From positions 62,001-126,000 of the forward strand of contig NZ_QPMJ01000002.1 of the NCBI RefSeq assembly GCF_003369835.1: a stretch of 64,000 bases of DNA, in the 5' to 3' direction. The notes beneath the pieces were generated by a model. It saw nothing but the letters and a program-made list of their open reading frames with translations, was not told the origin of the DNA and searched no databases. Within the stretch, counting starts at the first letter, position 1, and every line of letters begins with the position of its first letter. Source of the DNA: Halorussus rarus (lineage in GTDB: Archaea > Halobacteriota > Halobacteria > Halobacteriales > Haladaptataceae). Below, piece by piece: positions 31,033 through 37,752 of the stretch. The position numbers were made by a program, and so were the translations under genes.

Positions 31033-32202
31033 TCAGTCGTCGGCGTCCACCGTTTCCCGCTCGTCGCCGAGCAGTTCCTCGCGGTGCTCGTCGAGCAGCG
31101 GCGCGCGCTCGCCCGGTTCGGGCGGCGTCTCGCTCAGTTTGATGGGCGACCCCGCGATGGTGACCCGCTCGTCGGCGCCCGGCTGGTCGGCCTCGACGAG
31201 CATGTCGCGTGCGCGGACGTGGGGGTCCGCGAAGACGTCGCTCACGTCCTGGACGGGCGCGCACGGCACCGAGCCTTCGAGGGCGTCGCAGACCTGCTCG
31301 GCGGGAAGCGTCGCGGTCCACTCGGCGATCTCCTCGCGGAGCGACTCCCGGTGCTCCAGGCGGTCGGCCGTCGTCGGGTACTCGGCCGCGAGGTCCGGTC
31401 GGTCCATCGCCTCGCAGAGCGCCCGCCAGTGGTTGTCGCCGAACGCCGCGATGACGACGTGGCCGTCGGCCGCCTCGAAGGCGTTGTACGGGAACAGCGT
31501 CGGGTGGGCGTTCCCCCGGCGGGTCGGCACCTCGCCCGTATAGGAGTACTGGTAGACCGCCCGCTCGCACATCGAGATCATGGCGTCGTACATCGCGGTG
31601 TCGACGTACTGGCCCTCCCCGGTCCGGTCCCGGTGGTGGAGCGCCGCCAGAATGCCCACCGCGTTCAGCGTCGCGGTGAACAGGTCGCCGATGCCCGGTC
31701 CGACCTTGGTCGGCGGCCCGTCGGGCTGGCCGGTGATCTCCATCACGCCGCCGAGCGCCTGGGCGATGAGGTCGAACGAAGGCTGGCCCTGGCGGTCGGT
31801 CTCGCCCGTGCGCGGGTCGCCGAACCCCCGGATGGAGGCGTAGACCAGTTCGGGGTTGCGCTCGCACAGGGTCTCGTACTCCAGATCGAACCGCTCCATC
31901 GTTCCCGCCCGGAAGTTCTCGACCACGACGTCGGCGTCCTCGACCAGCTCGAGGAAGTCCGCCCGGTCGCCCTCGTCGGTCAGGTCGAGTTCGAGGCTGC
32001 GCTTGCCCCGGTTGACGCTCTGGAAGTAGCCGCCGTAGGCGTCGTCCTCGCTCGCGAACGGCGGGTTGGGCCGGATGAGGTCGCCGCCGGGGCGTTCGAT
32101 CTTCACCACGTCGGCCCCCAGATCCGCGAGCAGCATCGTGCAGTACGGACCGGCCAGCACCTGCGTCAGGTCGAGAACGCGCACGTCGTCGAGCGCTTGC
32201 AT
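31033..32202 (-). CDS. mct: Family III CoA-transferase, probable succinyl-CoA:mesaconate CoA-transferase
   Basis: CaiB/BaiF-type (class III) CoA-transferase of 389 residues. It has the opening VRVLDLTQVLAGPYCTMLLADLGADV, the catalytic-Asp region TAMYDAMISM and the C-terminal GSPIKLSETPP. In the methylaspartate cycle this enzyme moves CoA from succinyl-CoA to mesaconate. The assignment rests on divergent adjacency to glutamate mutase; family III members have many substrates. I start at the ATG before QALDDVRVL. A TATA-like AATAAATAA (about 32241-32249, minus strand) lies about 43 bases upstream, and a second candidate (32290-32296) is shared with the mutase control region. Confidence 0.85.
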   Translation of the reverse strand: MQALDDVRVLDLTQVLAGPYCTMLLADLGADVVKIERPGGDLIRPNPPFASEDDAYGGYFQSVNRGKRSLELDLTDEGDRADFLELVEDADVVVENFRAGTMERFDLEYETLCERNPELVYASIRGFGDPRTGETDRQGQPSFDLIAQALGGVMEITGQPDGPPTKVGPGIGDLFTATLNAVGILAALHHRDRTGEGQYVDTAMYDAMISMCERAVYQYSYTGEVPTRRGNAHPTLFPYNAFEAADGHVVIAAFGDNHWRALCEAMDRPDLAAEYPTTADRLEHRESLREEIAEWTATLPAEQVCDALEGSVPCAPVQDVSDVFADPHVRARDMLVEADQPGADERVTIAGSPIKLSETPPEPGERAPLLDEHREELLGDERETVDADD

Positions 32203-32301
32203 CGTTTCGCCGGTCGGCGACCCGGGACAAAAACCTTCCCAATAAATAATGCGGTTTGTCTGGAAGGGACACATACACCCTCAAATGACCTTAAAGGGAT
32301 T

Positions 32302-32339
32302 TAATCATGAACAATGATTATCTTTAAGTATTGTTCATG
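32302..32339 (+). promoter_or_regulatory. Operator and promoter of the methylaspartate-cycle operon
   Basis: A perfect 10-bp inverted repeat, CATGAACAAT (32306-32315) and ATTGTTCATG (32330-32339), encloses the TATA box CTTTAAG (32322-32328) in its 14-base spacer. A second dyad, TAATCAT-N5-ATGATTA (32302-32320), overlaps the left arm. The TATA box is about 28 bases from the ATG at 32353, so the mRNA should be leaderless. A protein bound to both arms would block TBP/TFB access. Confidence 0.65.
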
Positions 32340-32352
32340 GAAGTTGTAGATG

Positions 32353-32793
32353 ATGTCTGCTACAGTCATCCTCGGCGTCATCGGGTCCGACGCGCACGCC
32401 GTCGGCATCACCATCCTCGAACAGGCGCTGTCGGCGGCCGGCTTCGAGGTCGTCAACCTCGGCGTCCAGTCCAGCCAGCAGGAGTTCATCGCGGCTGCCG
32501 AAGCGCACGAGGGTGACGCGGTACTCGTCTCCTCTCTCTACGGTCACGCCGAGCAGGACTGCCGGGGGTTCCACGAGGCCATCGCGGACTCGGACCTCGA
32601 CCCGGTCACCTACATCGGCGGCAACCTCGCGGTCGGCCAGGACGACTTCGCGGAGACCCGCGATCGGTTCCGCGAGATGGGCTTCGACCGGGTCTTCGAC
32701 TCCGAGACCAGGCCCGAGGAGGCCATCGCCGCGCTCAAGACCGACATGAACATCGCCGAGTCCGAGGCCGAACGCGCCCAGATAACGTCCTGA
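32353..32793 (+). CDS. mamA: Glutamate mutase, cobalamin-binding subunit S
   Basis: A 146-residue B12-binding domain with the cobalt-ligand motif D-x-H-x-x-G (Asp13, His15, Gly18 in GSDAHAVG) and the later SSLYGH and GGNL loops. With subunit E it converts L-glutamate to L-threo-3-methylaspartate, the first committed step of the methylaspartate cycle and also of mesaconate-type glutamate fermentation. The second of two adjacent ATGs (32353) matches the transcript start predicted from the TATA box. It is followed after 16 bases by the large subunit gene. Confidence 0.94.
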   Translation: MSATVILGVIGSDAHAVGITILEQALSAAGFEVVNLGVQSSQQEFIAAAEAHEGDAVLVSSLYGHAEQDCRGFHEAIADSDLDPVTYIGGNLAVGQDDFAETRDRFREMGFDRVFDSETRPEEAIAALKTDMNIAESEAERAQITS

Positions 32794-32809: not shown

Positions 32810-34243
32810 ATGCTACGCGACACACGCCTTTCCGGTAGAGAGCTCTCGCGCATCGACGAGGAGATACGAGCCGACTGGTCGGTCGACGACCTCGACTTCG
32901 AGGAGGCGGTCGAGTACCACGACTCGCTCCCCGGGAGCAAGCAGTTCGCCCAGGTGCTCGAAACCGCCGACCGGCCACTGCTCCAGCCCCGGGCCGGGGT
33001 TCCTCGGCTCGACGACCAGATCGCGCTCCTGCGCCACCTCGAGGAGGCGGGCCGCGCGGACCTGCTCCCGACGACCATCGACTCGTACACCCGCGACAAC
33101 GAGTACGGGAAGGCCCAGCAGGGCCTCGAGGAGGCCCGCGAGAGCGGCGAGGACACCCTCAACGGCTTCCCGGCTGTCAACCACGGCGTCGAGGGCTGCC
33201 GCGAACTCGTCGAGGCGGTCGACGCGCCCGTCGAGGTGCGTCACGGCACGCCCGACGCCCGCCTGCTCGCGGCGGTCACGTTCGCCGGCGGGTTCCAGAG
33301 CTTCGAGGGCGGTCCCGTCTCGTACAACATCCCGTACACCAAGGAACGGGACCTCGCCCAGACCATCGAGCACTGGCAGTACGTCGACCGGCTCGCCGGC
33401 GCCTACACCGAGCGGGGCGTCACCGTCAACCGCGAGCCGTTCGGCCCGCTCACCGGGACGCTGGTCCCGCCGAGCATCGCCATCGCGGTGATGCTGGTCG
33501 AGGGGATGCTCGCGGCCACGCAGGGCGTCCGGAGCGTCACCCTCGGCTACGGCCAGGTCGGCAACCTGGTCCAGGACATCGCCGCGCTCCGGGCGCTCCG
33601 GGCGCTCGGCGAGGAGTACCTCCCCGACGAGGTGACCGTCACCACCGTCTTCCACGAGTGGATGGGCGGGTTCCCGCCGGACGAGGCCCGCGCCAACGGC
33701 GTCATCGCGCTCGGGGCGGCCACGGCGGCCATCGCCAAGCCGGACAAGGTCATCACCAAGTCCCCGCAGGAGTTCGGCGGCGTCCCCACCAAGGAGGCCA
33801 ACGCCGCGGGGCTGCGGACCACCAGGCAGCTCATCGACATGATGCGAGAACAGGAGATCAACCTCGACGGCGTCGACAGGGAACAGGAGTTCATCGAGAA
33901 GTCCACGCGGTCGCTAATGGACACGGTGCTGGAACTCGGCGACGAGGACGTCGCCCAGGGCGTCGTGAAGGCGTTCGAGACCGGCAAGCTCGACGTCCCG
34001 TTCGCGCCGAGCGAGAGCGCGGCGAGCGCGGTGCTGCCGGCCCGGGACGACGACGGCCGGGTCCGCATCCTCGAGTTCGGCGACCTGGCGCTCGACCCGG
34101 ACCTCAGGGACGTCCACACCGACCGTCTCGACCGCCGGGCGCGGGCGGAGAACCGCGACCGGTCGTTCCAGATGGTCGCCGACGACGTCGACGCCATCAG
34201 CGAGGGGCGGCTCATCGGCCGACCGGGAGGTGAGCAGGCGTGA
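32810..34243 (+). CDS. mamB: Glutamate mutase, catalytic subunit E
   Basis: TIM-barrel subunit of 477 residues that binds glutamate and the adenosyl part of B12. Recognisable runs are LLQPRAGVP, LPTTIDSYTRDNEYGKA, LNGFPAVNHGV and FEGGPVSYNIPYTKE, all typical of methylaspartate mutase epsilon chains. It overlaps the downstream lyase gene by 4 bases (GTGA). The product pathway is supported by the four downstream genes. Confidence 0.95.
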   Translation: MLRDTRLSGRELSRIDEEIRADWSVDDLDFEEAVEYHDSLPGSKQFAQVLETADRPLLQPRAGVPRLDDQIALLRHLEEAGRADLLPTTIDSYTRDNEYGKAQQGLEEARESGEDTLNGFPAVNHGVEGCRELVEAVDAPVEVRHGTPDARLLAAVTFAGGFQSFEGGPVSYNIPYTKERDLAQTIEHWQYVDRLAGAYTERGVTVNREPFGPLTGTLVPPSIAIAVMLVEGMLAATQGVRSVTLGYGQVGNLVQDIAALRALRALGEEYLPDEVTVTTVFHEWMGGFPPDEARANGVIALGAATAAIAKPDKVITKSPQEFGGVPTKEANAAGLRTTRQLIDMMREQEINLDGVDREQEFIEKSTRSLMDTVLELGDEDVAQGVVKAFETGKLDVPFAPSESAASAVLPARDDDGRVRILEFGDLALDPDLRDVHTDRLDRRARAENRDRSFQMVADDVDAISEGRLIGRPGGEQA

Positions 34244-35598
34244 CGACGATTGCGGAACTCCGGGCGGTTCCCGGCGCGTCGGGGTTCTTCTTCGACGACC
34301 AGCGCGCCATCAAGGACGGCGCCGAGCGCGACGGCTTCGCCTACCGGGGCGACCCGGTCACCCCCGGATTCGACCGGGTCCGGCAGGCCGGCGAGGCGAT
34401 AAGCGTCCTGGTCGAACTCGACGACGGCACGGTCGCGACCGGCGACTGCGCCGCGGTCCAGTACTCCGGCGCGGGCGGTCGCGACCCGCTGTTCCGGGCC
34501 GAGGAGTTCGTCCCGGTCGTGGAGGGTCCGGTCGCCGACGCGCTGGTCGGCAGAGACGCCGACCGGTTCGCCGAGAGCGCGGCCCTGCTGGAGGAACTCG
34601 ACGGTCCCGACGGCGAGACCGGCGGAGGCGCCGCGTCGACGAACGACGGGCGCTTCCACACCGCCATCCGGTACGGCGTCTCGCAGGCGCTGCTCGACGC
34701 CGCGGCGAAGGCGCGCCGGGCGACGAAGACCGACGTGCTGGCCGACGCGCTCGGCACCGACCCGGCCGACCGGCCGGTCCCGGTGTTCGGCCAGTCGGGC
34801 GACGCCCGCCGGGACAACGCCGAGAAGATGCTGCTGAAGGGCGTTCCGGTGCTCCCGCACGGCCTGTTCAACAGCGTCGAGAAGGTCGGCGAGCAGGGCG
34901 AGCGACTGGTCGAGTACATCGACTGGCTCTCGACGCGAGCGAGGGAGATCGCCCCGGAGGAGTACGCGCCCCGGTTCCACGTGGACGTGTACGGCGTCCT
35001 CGGGCAGGTCTTCGGCGCGCCCTACGACCGTGCCGAGGTCGCCGACTACTTCGCCGACCTCCGCGAGGCGGCGGCACCGTTCCCCCTGCAGGTCGAGGGA
35101 CCGATGGACGCGGGCGGGCGCGGCGAGCAGATCCACGCCATGACCGAACTCCGCGAGGGCCTGGCGGACGCCGGCGTCGAGGTCGACATCGTCGCCGACG
35201 AGTGGTGCAACACCTTCGAGGACGTCCGGGCGTTCGTCGACGCGGGCGCGGCCGACGTGGTCCAGGTCAAGACGCCCGACCTCGGCGGCGTCCAGCGGAG
35301 CGGCGAGGCGGTCCGGTACTGCGAGGGGACCGACACCCGGGCGTACCTCGGCGGGACCTGCAACGAGACCGCCGAGTCGGCCCGGACCTGCGCCCACGTC
35401 GCGCTCGCCACCGACGCGGCCCAGGTGCTCGCCAAGCCCGGCATGGGCTTCGACGAGGGGTACATGATCGTGACCAACGAGATGCGGCGGACGCTCGCCC
35501 GACGGGGCGACTGGCCGGCGACGGGCGGGGCGGGCGGCGCCTCCTCGCGGTCTCGACCGGACGCGGCCTCTGACGCGGGAGGTGCCGGCGATGACTGA
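34240..35598 (+). CDS. mal: Methylaspartate ammonia-lyase
   Basis: An enolase-superfamily enzyme of 452 residues that removes ammonia from 3-methylaspartate to give mesaconate. The N-terminal capping domain (FFFDDQRAIKDGA, AVQYSGAGGRDPLF) is followed by the barrel with VPVFGQSGDARRDNAEKM, LPHGLFNSVEK, the metal-binding HVDVYG and VADEWCNT, and the catalytic-base region VVQVKTPDLGG. The GTG start has a strong GGAGGTGA about 8 bases upstream, inside mamB. It overlaps the next gene by 8 bases. Confidence 0.96.
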   Translation: MTTIAELRAVPGASGFFFDDQRAIKDGAERDGFAYRGDPVTPGFDRVRQAGEAISVLVELDDGTVATGDCAAVQYSGAGGRDPLFRAEEFVPVVEGPVADALVGRDADRFAESAALLEELDGPDGETGGGAASTNDGRFHTAIRYGVSQALLDAAAKARRATKTDVLADALGTDPADRPVPVFGQSGDARRDNAEKMLLKGVPVLPHGLFNSVEKVGEQGERLVEYIDWLSTRAREIAPEEYAPRFHVDVYGVLGQVFGAPYDRAEVADYFADLREAAAPFPLQVEGPMDAGGRGEQIHAMTELREGLADAGVEVDIVADEWCNTFEDVRAFVDAGAADVVQVKTPDLGGVQRSGEAVRYCEGTDTRAYLGGTCNETAESARTCAHVALATDAAQVLAKPGMGFDEGYMIVTNEMRRTLARRGDWPATGGAGGASSRSRPDAASDAGGAGDD

Positions 35599-36700
35599 CT
35601 GGACCGACCCGTCGACGTTCGCGGCCGCGCTCGATCGGGCCGAGACGAAGGAGAAGGGCACCTACTTCGAGGAGTTCGCCGAGGGCGAGACCATCGAGCA
35701 CGCCCCCGGCCTCCGGCTCTCGCGGCACGGCTCGGAGCTGTGGGCCAGCCAGACGCTCAACCACGACCCGGCCTACTGGCGCTCGGACGCGGCCCGCGAC
35801 CTGGGCTTCGACGACCCGCCGGTCCACCCCGACTACCTGCTGGCCGCCGTGATGGGCCCGAGCGTCGAGGACCTGAGCGAGAAGGGCGGCTACTTCCTCG
35901 GTCGGGACGGCGTCCGGTTCCACGACCCCGCGGTGGCGTCCGGGACGGAGGTCCGGGTCGAGTCGACGGTCGAGGCAAAGCGCGAGTCGAGTTCGCGGCC
36001 CGCCTACGGCATCGTGACCTGGGAGACGACCGGGTACGACGCCGCGACCGGCGACCCCCTGCTGTCGTACACCCGGACGAACATGATCCCCCGGCGCGAG
36101 CCGGTTGCGACCGACGGCGAGGGGGCGACTGGGGCGGAATCCGCCGAGGGGACGACTGGTGAGGATTCGACCGCCGAATCGACGCCGGACCTCCCCGACG
36201 AACTCCTCGCGCCCGAGGGCCCGTACTTCGAGGACTTCCGGGACGCCGTCGAGCGCGCCCGGGACCGCGACGCCGCGGTGGCCTACCGCCACGAGCGGGG
36301 CCGGACGATGGACGACGTGCTGGTCTCGACCCTGCCGCTGCTCACGCTCAACACCGCGAAGCAGCACCACGACGACCACCACATGGCCGACTCGCCGTCG
36401 GGCGAGATCGTCGCCTACGGCGACGTCACCCGGTCGGTCGCGCTCGGCCACGCCCGGTCCGACGAGGCGACCGTCCGGGAGCTGTCCTGCGGCGACGAGC
36501 GGTTCCACGACTTCGTGACCGCCGGCGACACCGTCTACGGGTTCACCCGCGTCCTCGACGTGCGGGAGACCGACGGTGACGCGATTCCGGCGGGCGCTCC
36601 CGACGCGGGCGAAGTCACCTTCGAGCACTACGCGTTCAACCAGCGCGGCGAGCCGGTCTACTCCGGCACGCGGACCGCACTGGTCCGGAAGCGAAACTGA
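35591..36700 (+). CDS. mch: Mesaconyl-CoA hydratase
   Basis: A 369-residue double hot-dog (MaoC-like) hydratase, with one hot-dog around residues 20-175 (WASQTLNHDPAYW, DDPPVHPDYLL) and another from about 215 to the end (KQHHDDHHMADSP, YGDVTRSVALGHA). A charged linker of about 45 residues lies between them. It would hydrate mesaconyl-CoA to beta-methylmalyl-CoA. It is translationally coupled to mal by an 8-base overlap. Confidence 0.92.
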   Translation: MTDWTDPSTFAAALDRAETKEKGTYFEEFAEGETIEHAPGLRLSRHGSELWASQTLNHDPAYWRSDAARDLGFDDPPVHPDYLLAAVMGPSVEDLSEKGGYFLGRDGVRFHDPAVASGTEVRVESTVEAKRESSSRPAYGIVTWETTGYDAATGDPLLSYTRTNMIPRREPVATDGEGATGAESAEGTTGEDSTAESTPDLPDELLAPEGPYFEDFRDAVERARDRDAAVAYRHERGRTMDDVLVSTLPLLTLNTAKQHHDDHHMADSPSGEIVAYGDVTRSVALGHARSDEATVRELSCGDERFHDFVTAGDTVYGFTRVLDVRETDGDAIPAGAPDAGEVTFEHYAFNQRGEPVYSGTRTALVRKRN

Positions 36701-36729: not shown

Positions 36730-37752
36730 ATGACCCGAACACGACTCTGCCGAACGTTCCAGACCGCACCCGCCGGCGTCCCCCGCGACGACAGCGCGAA
36801 GTACCTCCGCTCCGGCCTCGCGGCCGAGGGGTGGCAGGCCCCCGACTGGCTGGTGCCCGACCTCGAAGACGGCACCGCCCCTGACCAGAAGGAGGAGGCG
36901 CTGGCGAACGTCCGGGACCTCCTCCCGGAGTACGCCCCCGAGTTCGCCGGCGAGATCTGGCCCCGCGTCGAGTGGGGCTACGACGACGAGGCGACCCGCG
37001 AGCGCGGCCGCGACCAGATATCCGAGCTCGTCGAGTCGGTCGGCGAGCACCTCGACGGCGTGGTCGTCCCGAAGGTCGGGCGACGCGACGACGTGGAGGA
37101 CGCCGAGGCCGCAGTCGAAGCCGCCGCGCGCGAGTCGGGCCACGACGTCGACCTCGCGGTCATCGTCGAGACCGCCCGCGCGCGCTCGGACCTCCGGGAG
37201 ATAGCGCAGTTCGGCGCCGACTCCCGGCTCGCCGCGCTGGTCTTCGGCCCGGTGGACTACGCCGCAGAGCTCGGCGGGCGCGACGTCGGCGGAAGCCCGG
37301 AGTGGCCGGGCCTCTACGAGGCCCTCTCGAACGAGGCCAGCGCCAACGACCTGCTGGCCATCGGCGGCCCCTTCGACAGACTGTTCCGCGAGCGCGCCGG
37401 CGTCACGTTCTACAACGGCGAGGCGTACGCCGAGTACGTCGAGCGCGAGGCCCGGGTCGGCCTCGACGGCTCGTGGTCGCTCCACCCCAATCAGACCGAG
37501 CAGGCCAACCGCATCCACCTGCCGAGCGAGGGCGAACTCCGCGAGGCGGTCCGGAAGATAGAGGGCTTCGTCGAGGCGAAGGAATCGGGCACCGGCGCGG
37601 TGTCCATCGACGGCCAGATGGTCGACGAGGCCACGTTCAAGAACTTCGAGAACACGGTCGAGACGGTCCGGGCAGTCCACGACGCCCGCGAGTCCCAGAC
37701 CCGCGAGTACTACGACGCCGACCTGCTCGATCGAGCGCTCTCGGTGGAGTGA
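36730..37752 (+). CDS. CitE-like beta-methylmalyl-CoA lyase
   Basis: A 340-residue HpcH/HpaI/CitE-family lyase. It has the substrate-binding Arg region LCRTFQTAPAGVPRD, the early Asp in VPDLEDGTAPDQK, the metal-binding Glu in LAVIVETARARSDL and Asp in LVFGPVDYAAELGG, and the C-terminal SLHPNQTEQANRI. In this operon it would split beta-methylmalyl-CoA into glyoxylate and propionyl-CoA; glyoxylate then condenses with acetyl-CoA by malate synthase, which is not in this window. Citramalyl- or malyl-CoA lyase activity is the alternative reading of the family. Confidence 0.92.
   Translation: MTRTRLCRTFQTAPAGVPRDDSAKYLRSGLAAEGWQAPDWLVPDLEDGTAPDQKEEALANVRDLLPEYAPEFAGEIWPRVEWGYDDEATRERGRDQISELVESVGEHLDGVVVPKVGRRDDVEDAEAAVEAAARESGHDVDLAVIVETARARSDLREIAQFGADSRLAALVFGPVDYAAELGGRDVGGSPEWPGLYEALSNEASANDLLAIGGPFDRLFRERAGVTFYNGEAYAEYVEREARVGLDGSWSLHPNQTEQANRIHLPSEGELREAVRKIEGFVEAKESGTGAVSIDGQMVDEATFKNFENTVETVRAVHDARESQTREYYDADLLDRALSVE

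Follow-up and report, generated by a model that had tools for sequence, protein, structure and literature searches.

What controls the promoter of the methylaspartate-cycle operon in Halorussus rarus, and is the palindrome that surrounds its TATA box the element through which control is exerted? About 40% of haloarchaea use the methylaspartate cycle in place of the glyoxylate cycle (PMC5592240). In the window, the whole 64-kb stretch of DNA (64,000 nucleotides) analysed here, the genes of the cycle form two divergent units. On the minus strand lies mct, encoding succinyl-CoA:mesaconate CoA-transferase (31033-32202; CoA_transf_3, Pfam 1.1e-130). On the plus strand follow mamA and mamB, encoding the small, B12-binding subunit (32353-32793; Pfam 1.6e-16) and the large subunit (32810-34243; Met_asp_mut_E, Pfam 8.9e-208) of glutamate mutase, then mal, for methylaspartate ammonia-lyase (34240-35598; Pfam 1.6e-112), mch, for mesaconyl-CoA hydratase (35591-36700; Pfam 1.3e-191), and a gene for a putative beta-methylmalyl-CoA lyase (36730-37752; HpcH_HpaI, Pfam 3.4e-17). 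These matches agree with the assignment of the promoter to the methylaspartate-cycle operon in the first-pass annotation of this DNA. The start of mamA at 32353 was set by comparison, being the start common to relatives, with MSATVILG as the conserved N-terminus. Among named loci, those of Halorussus have the mamA nearest to this one. To our knowledge the cycle has no known regulator, and none is named in the open-licence literature that was searched, which bears out the annotation on this point.

Between mct and mamA lies a perfect 10-bp inverted repeat with the mamA TATA box in its loop, as originally described. Its left arm, CATGAACAAT, occupies 32306-32315 and its right arm, ATTGTTCATG, 32330-32339, both read on the plus strand and both exact. 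The arms had been said to flank CTTTAAG exactly; instead they enclose a 14-bp loop, GATTATCTTTAAGT, and CTTTAAG lies inside it without touching either arm. A second, 7-bp dyad at the left arm, TAATCAT/ATGATTA (32302-32308 and 32314-32320, strandless), was also found, 100% paired across a 5-bp spacer, and it is the start of this inner dyad, not that of the 10-bp one, that the earlier-quoted position 32302 marks. The letters CTTAAAG are present at 32290-32296, as had been noted. The region as a whole gives nothing near the gathering score in Rfam, and so no match to a structured RNA or riboswitch.

By count, the 10-bp dyad is unremarkable in 64 kb. Of inverted repeats perfect over 10 bp and with a loop of 3-20, the window has nine and first-order Markov copies have a mean of 5.75. 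The dyad is the only AT-rich one among the nine, the simulations having produced none with at least 7 A/T, and within the 150-bp intergenic region such a dyad arises in 0.24% of Markov copies (0.0024). Alone it is no strong signal, and it is comparison with relatives that decides. That the repeat is a chance match over an ordinary AT-rich promoter, as its near-expected number in the window would allow, is nevertheless very unlikely: the block containing its left arm is conserved over 26 genera, and its right arm is conserved within Halorussus.

The comparison proposed in the first-pass annotation, of mamA promoters among relatives, gave a divided answer. Each of the nine mamA-bearing Halorussus species retains 8-10 of the 10 pairs. 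Between these species the right arm shows 93% identity, compared with 65% for the nine bases that follow it; within this genus, then, the right arm may do something. Outside Halorussus the dyad is lost, the outcome that the first-pass annotation had named as refuting its reading. In 124 mamA promoters from elsewhere, the two arms, taken at an unchanged distance, match at 2.0 of 10 positions, where shuffled pairings give 2.3, and with the spacing left free no covariation between the arms was found (5.56 for true pairs, 5.99 for shuffled ones). Neither Natrialbaceae such as Natrinema nor Haloarculaceae keep it, and conservation of the right arm across genera, 0.37 bits per base, is at the level of neutral flanks (0.3).

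These data bear directly on the model first put forward, in which a repressor dimer would occupy both 10-bp arms and exclude TBP/TFB, one protein silencing mct and mamA together. The perfection of the arms, the position of the TATA box between them and their retention within Halorussus while the adjacent downstream bases drift all speak for such a dimer, as does the recurrence of CATGAA...TTCAT in Halomicrococcus and Haloarchaeobius. Against it stand the loss of the arms in Natrialbaceae and Haloarculaceae, the missing covariation and the flank-level conservation of the right arm. In addition ATTGTTCAT, which is related to the right arm and recurs in Haloarchaeobius and Halorubellus, has only a poor left-arm counterpart in Halorubellus, and the promoter of mct itself is at least 55 bp away. 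A repressor dimer of this kind is thus distinctly improbable, and as a conserved operator the 10-bp dyad can be rejected outside Halorussus. To judge from the aligned promoters it is a Halorussus-specific addition between the TATA box and the transcription start, which at most contributes one more contact locally. However conspicuous, a perfect palindrome can distract from the element that evolution actually keeps.

That element emerges when mamA upstream regions from 59 related genomes, 80 named loci and selected further genomes are aligned. The alignment comprises 66 distinct promoters of operon type, with mamB downstream, and contains a gap-free block of 43 bp, corresponding to 32285-32327 on the plus strand of the window. 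Each of the 26 genera represented was counted once in weighting, the genus labels being partly hand-assigned from record titles. The block reads A..TTAAGGnnTWTTATCATGnAnrAYCATTAnnTTTAW: an A at column -15, TTAAGG at -8 to -3, a core TWTTATCATGnAnrAYCATTA at 0-20, two free bases, and TTTAW. Per base, genus-weighted conservation is 1.63 bits across the core (21 columns), 1.77 across the TATA box and 1.29 across TTAAGG; the flanks have 0.24-0.30. In 58 of the 66 promoters, the distance from the start of the block to the ATG is 55-56 nt.

In the window, the TTAAGG-like element reads TAAAGG (32292-32297) and overlaps CTTAAAG. The first core repeat, ATCATG (32304-32309), is invariant or nearly so (columns 4-9, 1.75-2.0 bits). 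The second (32316-32320; columns 16-20, 1.61-2.0 bits) lies 10 bp after it, with which it faces one side of the helix, occupies the position of the BRE and ends 2 bp before the TATA box TTTAA (32323-32327; columns 23-26, 1.76-2.0 bits). Across the conservation profile as a whole, periodicity at the 10-bp helical repeat is weak and suggestive only (p about 0.05). The second repeat is CATTA in most genera and GATTA in Halorussus, and it is from this substitution that the inner dyad arises; the dyad at 32302-32320 is therefore, on alignment, the Halorussus form of the two core repeats. The left arm of the 10-bp dyad likewise lies entirely within the block. As the TATA box is 26-30 nt ahead of the ATG at 32353, a leaderless mamA mRNA is predicted. 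Leaderless transcripts are usual in Haloferax volcanii, where they make up 72% of protein-coding transcripts (PMC4983044).

The block is kept in almost every haloarchaeon that owns the operon. A strict core pattern, ATCATGN6SATTANNTTTA, was searched for in 293 Halobacteriales genomes, 107 of which have mamA. It occurs at 111 places in 99 genomes, whereas the reversed pattern, used as a control, occurs once. Comparison of the two lists places 102 of the 111 occurrences at mamA promoters, in 91 mamA genomes. Sixteen mamA genomes have no strict core: 12 of them carry variants of 1-3 bases at this position, in one (G045) the sequence there is degenerate, and the other three fell outside the comparison. 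The H. rarus genome holds the block once, with one additional match at 2 mismatches. As far as sequence can show, the block is thus selected, nearly operon-specific and in contact with the TATA box.

Of the nine remaining places, seven are promoters of GNAT genes in Halorussus, six of which come from genomes that lack mamA; one is a uspA promoter (G270) and one lies inside a coding sequence (G036). Further Halorussus genomes carry a near-match of the block before the GNAT gene. As these GNAT and uspA occurrences show, acetate assimilation is not the exclusive setting of the block. Where a Halorussus genome lacks mamA, the block-bearing GNAT acetyltransferase gene sits between an aldo/keto reductase gene and a tyrA-like gene, and at most of these loci a short ORF (MGRR..APY) begins at the predicted leaderless start, before the start of the GNAT gene. 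The window has no GNAT gene at the corresponding place (about 50.2-50.9 kb). At the uspA-like gene of G270, which also has no mamA, the block stands at about the same distance from the start codon as at mamA.

Many Natrialbaceae have a second, stand-alone mamA behind a gene for an HTH-phosphoribosyltransferase. These copies have a promoter of their own, ACATTATTAATCATTAGGTTTAT, which is conserved, as is a stretch reaching to the ATG. In Haladaptatus pallidirubidus, for its part, mamA is found at two loci whose promoters are the same, each with 82% identity to the query; the region may have been duplicated recently.

The first-pass annotation had taken CTTAAAG, the mirror image of the mamA TATA box, as a TATA box facing mct, so that one protein could control both units. 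On two observations, this TATA assignment can be rejected. The GNAT promoters keep the TTAAGG-like part of the block, to which CTTAAAG belongs, though the upstream aldo/keto reductase gene is co-directional; since this part is kept where no gene diverges, it belongs to the block and is not the TATA box of a divergent gene. Moreover, mct has its own conserved promoter, AAGGTTTTTG, at 32228-32237 on the minus strand, with a TATA-like sequence at 32228-32233, 26-31 nt ahead of the mct ATG. Across 59 mct promoters AAGG-TTTT is conserved, mostly 34-35 nt before the ATG. The symmetrical arrangement therefore fails, but one protein may control both mct and mamA, because the block sits between the two operons. 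Also conserved is a TGTG...CA element that separates the block from the mct promoter (32257-32271 in the window; columns -43 to -29).

Which protein might read the block? Among the conserved neighbours of the operon there is no regulator gene. The HTH-phosphoribosyltransferase found upstream of the second mamA copies was considered as a dedicated regulator and rejected: it is present in most relatives regardless of mamA, has no match in one mamA-bearing genome (G046), and is a general haloarchaeal gene, independent of mamA. In Haloarcula hispanica the methylaspartate operon responds to carbon source and to deletion of trmB; in the deletion strain without glucose its expression rises, and the authors suggest that this effect is indirect (PMC10817205). 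If so, a second regulator is to be expected.

The reading that we favour, at a probability of roughly 0.6, is that the block is a promoter-proximal binding site for a methylaspartate-cycle regulator whose gene is not linked to the operon, more likely an activator than a repressor. One protein, probably an oligomer, would bind along one face of the DNA, as the spacing of the repeats suggests, and contact TFB/TBP. It may activate the operon by recruiting these factors when acetyl-CoA must be assimilated. Activation is somewhat the likelier of the two modes, because the site abuts the TATA box on its upstream side and the BRE position departs from the haloarchaeal consensus, reading CATTAnn or GATTATC instead of CGAAA (PMC4983044). 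Archaeal activators typically bind upstream of the BRE, often at promoters in which the BRE or TATA box is off-consensus (PMC5512572). Of the earlier proposal that the operon is controlled through this promoter, the part that stands is that a strongly selected element, apparently of protein-binding type, surrounds the TATA box; that this element is the 10-bp dyad does not.

The same block could instead be an operator, at which a repressor overlapping the BRE would block TFB and be released on rising levels of acetyl-CoA or of a cycle intermediate. The second core repeat does cover the BRE, with 2 bp left to the TATA box, and a protein bound over the BRE is equally able to keep TFB off; in H. 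hispanica BRE-overlapping TrmB sites accompany repression (PMC10817205). Measured from the TATA box, however, the block extends upstream for over 35 bp, beyond what steric exclusion needs, and an off-consensus BRE suggests a promoter dependent on help. Repression at the block is a tentative alternative, to be taken seriously without being expected.

A different possibility is that no classical regulator is involved, and that a specialised TFB/TBP pair reads the block as an extended core promoter, in the manner of a sigma-like switch. It would account for the fixed 2-bp spacing between CATTA and TTTA and the placement of CATTA-nn exactly at the BRE. It would also suit the second mamA copies, whose promoters retain just CATTAGGTTTAT, the CATTA-nn-TTTAT half of the block, and the uspA gene of the one mamA-less genome, with its shared architecture and start-codon distance. 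Yet there is usually one site per genome, which is few for a general factor, and conservation runs on to TTAAGG and the A at -15, outside the reach of TFB. We regard this explanation as improbable, on a par with the repressor dimer. A broader proposal is that the block defines a regulon of this one operon, or a very small one, and that throughout Halobacteriales its reader, either a regulator family not yet described or a TFB/TBP pair reserved for it, moves acetyl-CoA assimilation over to the methylaspartate cycle; this is unlikely.

The original observation of the sequence was right and its interpretation partly so; the conserved cis-element is a more useful finding than the one first stated. 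A precise and nearly genome-unique DNA target turns the search for the regulator into a short experiment, using either bait DNA or a comparison of gene presence in Halorussus and Haladaptatus, of whose genomes here three carry mamA and six lack it, and the distribution of the block provides a sharp filter for any genome comparison that seeks the regulator.

Of the known systems, TrmB of H. hispanica resembles the one proposed here in having carbon-responsive, promoter-proximal sites, and the methylaspartate operon is altered in its deletion strain (PMC10817205). It differs in that its motif is a 19-bp partial palindrome present 235 times per genome, and in that its effect on the operon is possibly indirect (PMC10817205). 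The features of EarA/Ptr2-type activation can be recognised at mamA on sequence grounds: a conserved site lies immediately upstream of the BRE/TATA across 26 genera, and the core promoter appears weak or off-consensus. Ptr2 of Methanocaldococcus jannaschii belongs to the Lrp/AsnC family, no protein of which is known to be linked to the mamA promoter; the source consulted on Lrp states no published Lrp binding site of Haloferax mediterranei for comparison. Multiple upstream sites allow Ptr2 to recruit TBP to a weak core promoter (PMC5512572), and the likeness to the mamA block is one of site architecture. At the fla promoter of Methanococcus maripaludis, several copies of a short motif, bound by the activator EarA, adjoin the BRE on its upstream side and serve one operon (PMC5512572), much as the repeats of the block do at mamA. 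Besides being found in another organism, the EarA site differs in consisting of four 6-bp copies, whereas the last repeat of the mamA block covers the BRE itself.
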